Of a stretch of 64,000 bases of DNA, positions 43,771 through 46,086 are shown piece by piece. This DNA is from Halobacillus karajensis (GTDB lineage Bacteria > Bacillota > Bacilli > Bacillales > Halobacillaceae): NCBI RefSeq assembly GCF_900108515.1, contig NZ_FNWW01000001.1, positions 558,001 through 622,000 on the forward strand, read 5' to 3'. How positions within the stretch are numbered: the stretch's first letter is position 1; each line of letters starts with the position of its first letter. The position numbers were made by a program, and so were the translations under genes. Below the pieces are notes generated by a model that was given only the letters and a program-made list of their open reading frames with translations, did not search any database and was not told where the DNA came from.

Positions 43771-44035
43771 CATTAACCCTCCATTTTTTCATTCTGTTAT
43801 ACATGATAAGACGTTTTGTGTTTAAAAGAAAGTAGTTCGAACCAAGTTTTCCAATTGAAGCGATTTCATTTTAACTTTACCCTATTTCATCAAAGATGAT
43901 ACTTCTGTTTCGCCCCTGCTATTATTCACAAAATCGTAATAGACGCTTCGTTATCTATCGAAAAGTAAATGTGTTATATTAATGGAGGATGATTTATTAG
44001 TACAATACTTCAATGTAAAAGGAGCGATCGATCCC

Positions 44036-44773
44036 ATGCCAGAAGCAGTAGTTACCATGGACGGTTGGTATTGTTTGCATGATTTTCGTTCTGTCGATTG
44101 GACAGCATGGAAGTATGCATCAAATGAAGACCGCGAACAGGCAATCAGTGAATTTAAACAATTGATTGGTCAATGGGAAGAAACAGAACGCAGCAAAGAA
44201 GGAAGTCATGCTTTATATACAATTGTCGGTCAGAAAGCTGACTTTATGATGATGATTCTCCGCCCGACAATGGAAGAGCTGAATGAAATTGAAACAGCCT
44301 TCAATAAAACCAAGCTGGCTGAATACACGAAGCCTGCATATTCGTATGTATCGGTGGTTGAACTATCCAATTACATGGGAAGCGCCAACGAAGATGACCC
44401 TGAAATTCAGGCACGTCTCCACCCGACACTTCCTAAATGGAACCATATTTGTTTCTACCCGATGGACAAGCGCCGTCAGGGCAATGACAACTGGTATGTG
44501 CTCGAGAAAGATGAGCGCGCGAAATTAATGTATGCTCACGGAATGACCGGGCGTCAATATGCTGGAAAAATCCGTCAGATCATTACAGGTTCCATTGGTT
44601 TCGACGATTGGGAATGGGGCGTCACACTATTTGCTCACGATGTCCTTCAGTTTAAGAAGCTCGTATATGAGATGCGCTTTGATGAAGTAACTTCGCGCTA
44701 TGGTGATTTTGGATCATTCTATATTGGGAATATCCTGAAACCGGATGCTGTCGATCAATTTTTGCATGTTTAG
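44036..44773 (+). CDS. hemQ: Coproheme decarboxylase HemQ
   Basis: Last enzyme of the Gram-positive coproporphyrin heme pathway. A chlorite-dismutase-fold protein of 245 residues. The catalytic tyrosine is Tyr141 (CFYPMDKRR) and the proximal heme ligand is His168 ([11 protein letters not shown]). The [29 protein letters not shown] tail is typical. I use ATG at 44036 after AAAGGAG; the earlier ATG at 43982 has GGAGG too close. Divergent from pta, as in B. subtilis (ywfI). Confidence 0.94.
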
Positions 44774-45081: not shown

Positions 45082-45234
45082 CCACCTACCTTCCATTTAT
45101 TCGAATAAACTTGTGATCAATCCTTAAGGGCATTTGTTGTCCACCAGATATTTTTTATTCATATCTACATAGGCGTGTCACATATAGTGTTAAAGAACAT
45201 ACAAACATGCCTTTCTTAAAAGTGAGGTGACAGC

Positions 45235-45555
45235 ATGGCTGTTATTTCCTTCCATCCAATGACTTCTCACGTCTTCGGCTAAAGGAAGCTGAAGTGGAAG
45301 GTAAAACAAGGCGTGCTTATGGTCTGGAATACCAGAGTCAAACCGTGTCCGTGGGGAATGTATCGATTTTTTCGATACGCTTCGTAAAATGGTGGACCAA
45401 AGTCTAAGCGGCTGCTGCCGGCACGTCTTACTACTTTGGTTCTTTACGCCCTTAGGAGGCTGCCCAGCCCAGTGGTTCGGCCAGTGGAACACGGGAAGAT
45501 ACAAACTCATTGTTTCTTTTCCCCGACTCGGTCTGACTGTCCTAGTGTTTATTAA
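45235..45555 (+). pseudogene. cwlJ: Degraded spore cell-wall hydrolase gene cwlJ
   Basis: Fragments of CwlJ run in order but in shifting frames. They are MAV after GAGGTGA (45235), RLRLKEAEVEGK (about 45270-45305), QGVLMVWNTRVK (45307-45342) and NRVRGECIDFFDTLRKMVDQ (45341 on). About 35 codons are then missing (the GGFEA...GYFYQ region), followed by GGCPAQWFGQWNTGRYK (to 45505) and, one frame over, THCFFSPTRSDCPSVY and the stop at 45553-45555. At least four frame changes make it non-functional. CwlJ normally degrades spore cortex in germination and needs GerQ, whose intact gene starts 21 nt later. Confidence 0.85.
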
Positions 45556-45576
45556 TTCCAATAAGGAGTGATTCAG

Positions 45577-46086
45577 TTGGCAGAAAAGAAACCACAAATG
45601 GGAGGACAGGGTCAAGGACAGCAGATGTATGGCCAATCCCCTTCCCCGTATTACGGCCAGAACCCTTATATGTACTATTATCCAAGTGGACCCATGGCTA
45701 ACCAAGGAATGGGGATGCCACAACAACAACCACAATTCCAGGGTCAACAAGCTGGCACTCAACCCCCTCAAATGCAGCAAACGCAAACGACAGGTGGAGT
45801 AAATCCACCCAATATGCTTCCATCTGAGGAGTCCTACATCGAAAATATTTTACGTTTAAATGCTGGGAAGCCTGCAACGGTTTATATGACGTTCGAAAAT
45901 AACGATCAATGGAATGCAAAAGTATTCAAAGGGATTATAGAGGCAGCAGGAAGAGATCACATTATCCTCAGTGATCCACAAACCGGAAAGCGTTATTTAT
46001 TGCTAATGGTGTATCTTGATTACATTACATTCGATGAAGAAATTAACTACAACTATCCGTATGGAAGTGGCACCGGCCAACGTTAA
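45577..46086 (+). CDS. gerQ: Spore coat protein GerQ
   Basis: Coat protein that anchors CwlJ and is cross-linked by transglutaminase Tgl. The N-terminal 80 residues are rich in Gln, Tyr, Pro and Met. The conserved C-terminal domain contains SYIENILRLNAGKPATVYMTF and RDHIILSDPQTGKRYLLLMVYLDYITFDEEI. I use TTG at 45577 (MAEKKPQM), 8 nt after AAGGAG; the GTG at 45568 overlaps that site. N-terminal lysines are potential cross-linking sites. Its usual partner gene cwlJ is a wreck just upstream. Confidence 0.93.
   Translation: MAEKKPQMGGQGQGQQMYGQSPSPYYGQNPYMYYYPSGPMANQGMGMPQQQPQFQGQQAGTQPPQMQQTQTTGGVNPPNMLPSEESYIENILRLNAGKPATVYMTFENNDQWNAKVFKGIIEAAGRDHIILSDPQTGKRYLLLMVYLDYITFDEEINYNYPYGSGTGQR

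Follow-up and report, generated by a model that had tools for sequence, protein, structure and literature searches.

The window analysed here, a 64,000-nucleotide stretch of a Halobacillus karajensis contig, contains a gerQ gene that is directly preceded by the remains of a cwlJ gene. The remnant lies between hemQ (chlorite dismutase family, 43982-44773) and gerQ, in the conserved hemQ-cwlJ-gerQ order that is also found in congeners, and the locus comprises the following features:

45152..45211, + strand: promoter-like block before the dead cwlJ (TCATATCT ... CATATAGT), conserved among congeners
45235..45555, + strand: cwlJ pseudogene, the gerQ-linked copy (CwlJ1), with frame changes, stops in every frame and about 35 codons missing
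45563..45570, + strand: gerQ ribosome-binding site AAGGAGTG, ahead of the most likely start, TTG 45577
45577..46086, + strand: gerQ, intact, 169 aa from TTG, with profile and structure matches; the mechanical open reading frame begins at GTG 45568

Structurally, the cwlJ copy linked to gerQ is a genuine pseudogene in this strain. Searching the window by tblastn with the intact CwlJ of a congener (genome G012, locus L085) returned two overlapping matches in different frames (45341-45505 and 45493-45552) with a joint E of 2.6e-19, far beyond chance, and both ends of the former gene can still be located by alignment, its start codon at 45235 and its stop at 45553-45555. Measured against the intact congener G011, the body of the remnant contains eight indels, six of which change the frame; as a reference, the other intact rows in the same alignment have none (six of six). 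Two of the 106 gap columns are insertions, which leaves about 104 bases lost, and the three frames hold three, three and four stops, with no open frame over the CwlJ domain at 45235-45555 and no Hydrolase_2 match there in a profile scan of the genome. The initial annotation had described a decayed cwlJ upstream of an intact gerQ and its ribosome site, with a missing block of about 35 codons and a frame change at GRYK-THC, near the C-terminus; every part of this description holds, the GRYK-THC frame change being real by tblastn, and gerQ itself showing AAGGAGTG and domain matches above curated cut-offs. These are Pfam Spore_GerQ (3e-45, 152.5 bits versus a cut-off of 25) and NCBIfam spore_gerQ (150.3 bits versus 88.95), and the protein also matches the GerQ structure PDB 8zra (1.6e-43).

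Within the genus, 21 of the 22 Halobacillus genomes (own included) have a gerQ match, and the linked cwlJ is open in 16 of these and not in five (our genome, G000, together with G003, G008, G009 and G013). Comparison with sister strains, which the initial annotation had proposed as a check, therefore yields four congeners in which the linked cwlJ is likewise broken or deleted. The copy in H. litoralis SL-4 (G008) is interrupted by two in-frame stops without any shift of frame, that of G013 has one stop in common with G008 plus frame changes, that of G009 has lost 145 bases (a single gap as aligned), and H. dabanensis (G003) keeps the last ten codons only; G000 has its own set and, other than the stop shared by G008 and G013, lesions differ among the losers. 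Evolutionarily, a genus tree of seven neighbouring proteins, which leaves out G018 (no gerQ found), gives four changes in the state of the linked cwlJ, with a range of three to four over 90% of 200 bootstrap trees and two forced by starred branches alone. For G008 and G013, dN/dS of cwlJ1 against two intact neighbours is 0.70-0.94, and for intact cwlJ1 pairs it is 0.04-0.10 in the three of seven that were measurable (the other four gave no dS); these ratios indicate that in the recent losses (G008 and G013) decay is nearly neutral. In the older lineages the values are lower, 0.23-0.25 over 99 readable codons for our remnant (versus G001 and G011, dS 0.77-0.81) and 0.16-0.20 for G009 (dS ~1.5); they would fit a gene still under constraint along most of these branches, and alone are no demonstration of neutrality.

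The same comparison bears on a technical explanation, in which faulty sequencing or assembly would have put the frame changes into a cwlJ that is really intact, as might be suspected of a draft genome in 24 contigs. Against this stand the ~104 missing bases and six frame changes within a single gene, the broken or deleted copies in four other congeners, two of which (G009 and G013) are assembled in two contigs each, and the stop common to G008 and G013 with its accompanying dN/dS. We consider such an error hardly credible, and as the sole cause it is ruled out by the sister genomes' own lesions.

Upstream of gerQ, conservation is uneven. The 46 positions that lead into gerQ (the cwlJ end and the ribosome site) are identical to G011 at 43, and the promoter-like block of our genome is identical to G011 at 52 of 60. 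In the four of five decayed Halobacillus loci with an alignable cwlJ body, differences from G011 in the block versus the body amount to 8/60 versus 78/304 in G000 (one-sided Fisher p 0.025), 2/60 versus 47/408 in G008 (p 0.033), 8/60 versus 82/249 in G009 (p 0.0014) and 0/60 versus 49/401 in G013 (p 0.0007). In H. dabanensis (locus L088) the body is deleted, and the block survives as a 51/60 copy whose end lies 58 nt ahead of the ribosome site of gerQ. The TCATATCT ... CATATAGT block resembles a mother-cell sigma-E promoter, and the simplest reading would be that the promoter region of an old cwlJ-gerQ operon has been kept as the gerQ promoter, in which case the dead cwlJ would be a mere leader of gerQ. 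In five further loci from several genera (L019, L042, L054, L076 and L014), roughly the last 10-24 cwlJ codons alone are recognisable directly before gerQ, by weak matches, as if kept as a gerQ lead.

Beyond the genus, we surveyed the best 80 of 240 GerQ relatives, a selection that favours close kin of the window, Halobacillus included (the top 14 named gerQ loci are all Halobacillus). The linked cwlJ is intact in 50 loci, a remnant in 12 and not seen in 18, so that 30 of 80 are without an intact copy, a count that includes L043 and L067, whose single lesions might stem from sequencing error, as well as two of the 18, L029 (close to the end of a contig) and L079 (from a MAG); among the 12 remnants, L019, L042 and L076 are weak (profile hits of 12-18 bits) and L014 is a ten-residue match. 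One locus, L021, was omitted from alignment A1. The GerQ core is open in all 80 loci, including all 30 without an intact linked cwlJ. On a tree of the 80 named genomes there are 14 changes, 11 of them forced by starred branches, which we read as losses of the linked cwlJ. A dead linked cwlJ beside a live gerQ is thus common and not very surprising. A full-length open CwlJ lies elsewhere in 30 of 30 genomes that lost the linked copy versus 40 of 50 in which it is intact (Fisher p 0.006, ignoring kinship; 0.008 when L029 and L079 are left out). An association between loss and backup was not upheld by a kinship-aware pair test, likewise without those two loci, in which on average 2.3 of 11 independent pairs were informative and the median p was 0.5. 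As a side observation, the record of L067 is named Roseburia sp. 1XD42-34, and its gerQ region is Virgibacillus-like and groups with Virgibacillus, so this is probably a mislabelled or mixed assembly.

Genome-wide, a profile scan of our strain finds two Hydrolase_2 matches, one being SleB and the other an intact, unlinked CwlJ of 146 aa at G000:C16:18498-18935 (hereafter CwlJ2), which is the sole CwlJ there, the count at E <= 1e-15 being exactly one. CwlJ2 has one Hydrolase_2 domain, full-length, and keeps the residues that are invariant in 18 aligned CwlJ, among them Glu21 (18 of 18), which falls on a Glu when CwlJ2 is aligned with the SleB of PDB 4f55 (E 1e-4). It is not SleB, because its score of 47.7 against the SleB equivalog falls under the cut-off of 236.5. 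The 21 other Halobacillus genomes each have an open close match, 72-86% identical, so that with our own the total is 22 of 22. For CwlJ2 the median dN/dS comes to 0.060 when genomes that lost cwlJ1 are compared with one another (7 usable pairs of 10), to 0.058 when the near intact ones are (6 of 10) and to 0.080 when G000 is set against all (4 of 20), medians that omit saturated pairs and come from pairs that are near saturation themselves (median dS 1.0-2.0); judged by these ratios, CwlJ2 is under purifying selection. In its upstream region all 22 rows keep TCATA, 18 have CATANNNTA and 11, G000 included, have the longer TTTTTTCATACAATA. This element resembles the -10 element of a mother-cell promoter, and CwlJ2 would be expected to be made in sporulation.

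As to the surroundings of these paralogues, the 53-kb CwlJ2 contig includes genes that look, by eye, like potassium-transport, regulator and ABC genes, and 18 kb of it matched plasmid records at a single place, 465 bases long and in one record; the idea that CwlJ2 resides on a plasmid was therefore set aside. Over those 465 bases, CwlJ2 plus a short upstream stretch (L155:467-931) shares 78% identity with a gene labelled 'cell wall hydrolase' that sits on a Peribacillus frigoritolerans plasmid of 16 kb (NZ_OY970404.1), and CwlJ2-type genes may travel. A third CwlJ (CwlJ3) occurs in nine other Halobacillus genomes and is flanked by PAP2-like and yuiD-like genes in the two of the nine whose neighbours were inspected; beside the yuiD-like gene of our own genome (L157, G000:C9) no CwlJ3 remnant was seen.

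Across the order, GerQ is found in 380 and CwlJ in 381 of 397 genomes, where CwlJ denotes a match at E <= 1e-15, counted as a match and not as a checked intact gene. No GerQ genome is without a CwlJ match (0 of 380), one genome (G316) has CwlJ without GerQ, and 16 have neither. SpoIVA is absent from 15 of those 16, which are probably not spore formers, and the 380/380 co-occurrence is weak on its own because the double absences mostly follow loss of sporulation; for that reason we dropped it as decisive evidence. The remaining one of the 16, G371, has SpoIVA, CotE and a SleB-sized Hydrolase_2 protein, yet no GerQ or CwlJ. In G316 (L159, G316:C22:41800-44500), a spore former with SpoIVA and CotE, cwlJ is open and no GerQ match is found genome-wide; a PhoD-type phosphatase-like gene (judged by eye) follows cwlJ at the place expected for gerQ.

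From a functional perspective, we posit an ordinary replacement by a paralogue, in which CwlJ2 together with SleB-YpeB would hydrolyse the cortex and gerQ would be kept for CwlJ2 in trans, a reading to which we give a probability of roughly 0.77. Coat-side hydrolysis would be carried by CwlJ2, SleB-YpeB would act from the inside as a backup, and GerQ would hold CwlJ2 in the coat instead of the product of the adjacent gene. By analogy with B. cereus CwlJ2, the Halobacillus protein may answer Ca-DPA. In B. cereus 10876 the Ca-DPA response is reported to be abolished only by losing both CwlJ1 and CwlJ2, loss of CwlJ1 alone making it much slower (PMC12331253), and in a ywdL (gerQ) insertion mutant of B. 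cereus ATCC 10876 it is reported to be completely blocked (PMC3161080). Taken together, the need for a double loss and the ywdL block suggest that B. cereus CwlJ2 also needs GerQ, a conclusion that is ours and is stated in neither paper, and GerQ could by analogy localise CwlJ2 in the coat of our strain as well. The ywdL argument is weakened because the response without CwlJ1 is much slower, so that a slow, GerQ-independent response of CwlJ2 could have been missed in the mutant assay. GerQ is described as assembling into bowls of nine subunits, where models place a docked CwlJ although such contact is unproven (PMC11405398), and CotE is described as a helper of CwlJ placement (PMC11841064); CotE is present in our genome. 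Two observations count against the proposed dependence on GerQ: CwlJ2 shares no more than 54-57% identity with three congeneric CwlJ1, so that its fit to GerQ is putative, and the cwlJ of G316 persists in a genome where GerQ was not found.

The initial annotation had offered three ways out of a dead cwlJ beside a live gerQ, namely another cwlJ copy, a second role for GerQ or germination through SleB alone, and had proposed searching for a second cwlJ and for sleB. Both searches succeeded, and CwlJ2 on contig C16 shows the first option to hold. Intact sleB and ypeB are adjacent open reading frames (L001) that match full-length equivalogs (TIGR02869, 326.5 bits; TIGR02889, 422.7 bits), and in B. 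subtilis either enzyme is reported to suffice (PMC11841064), so that cortex hydrolysis via SleB alone, with gerQ as a leftover awaiting decay, has something to recommend it. We dropped it as the leading reading, with CwlJ2 intact, and hold it to be very unlikely: the genome has an intact CwlJ2 under purifying selection, the GerQ domain is open in five of five loser genomes (154-156 bits), and GerQ median dN over the losers' 10 pairs is 0.022. The GerQ core median dN/dS is 0.006 among losers, where one of 10 pairs was unsaturated, and 0.005 in the near intact group, from 6 of 10 pairs.

The remaining option, in which a coat-structural role of GerQ without any CwlJ would alone explain the retention of gerQ, draws on the fragile exosporium reported for B. 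cereus ywdL mutants (PMC3161080), on the nine-subunit rings and filaments that GerQ is reported to form alone (PMC11405398) and on the GerQ core staying open in all 30 named loci where the linked cwlJ is not intact. Such a role is not needed, since GerQ always occurs with at least one CwlJ match (380/380), and G371, the sole SpoIVA genome among the 16 without CwlJ, is also without GerQ (a single case). We consider the option improbable, and it is similarly doubtful that a coat function independent of CwlJ maintains GerQ in these lineages, such that the repeated losses of linked cwlJ would record genes parting rather than a change of partner.

Replacement by CwlJ2, the reading we prefer, involves nothing unusual in itself, the loss of one of two paralogues being an ordinary event. 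Searches of the open-access literature gave no paper that treats the loss of cwlJ in Halobacillus. What the losses offer is a natural experiment on GerQ, in which the linked cwlJ died about four times in Halobacillus and 11-14 times among the 80 relatives (Halobacillus counted among them), and gerQ stayed. If GerQ is a docking scaffold for any CwlJ, Ca-DPA germination in such strains should need both gerQ and the unlinked CwlJ, which makes the service of GerQ to CwlJ paralogues in general testable. For annotation, the losses caution that no cwlJ beside gerQ does not mean no CwlJ in the genome.

Among known systems, B. subtilis cwlJ and gerQ (PMC11841064, PMC11405398) provide a likeness in that the GerQ family is the same, the protein here matching 8zra; in our strain, unlike B. 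subtilis as described there, the linked cwlJ is broken and a divergent paralogue, CwlJ2, would have to serve. Another is the arrangement reported for B. cereus, where a cwlJ1-gerQ (ywdL) operon is accompanied by an unlinked cwlJ2 (PMC12331253, PMC3161080): in both organisms one CwlJ gene lies beside gerQ (here as a pseudogene), a second, single-gene CwlJ lies elsewhere, and sleB is present too. In B. cereus, however, both CwlJ copies are reported to be functional and the linked one to matter more, whereas in H. karajensis the linked copy is dead and the unlinked CwlJ2 is the only CwlJ found.
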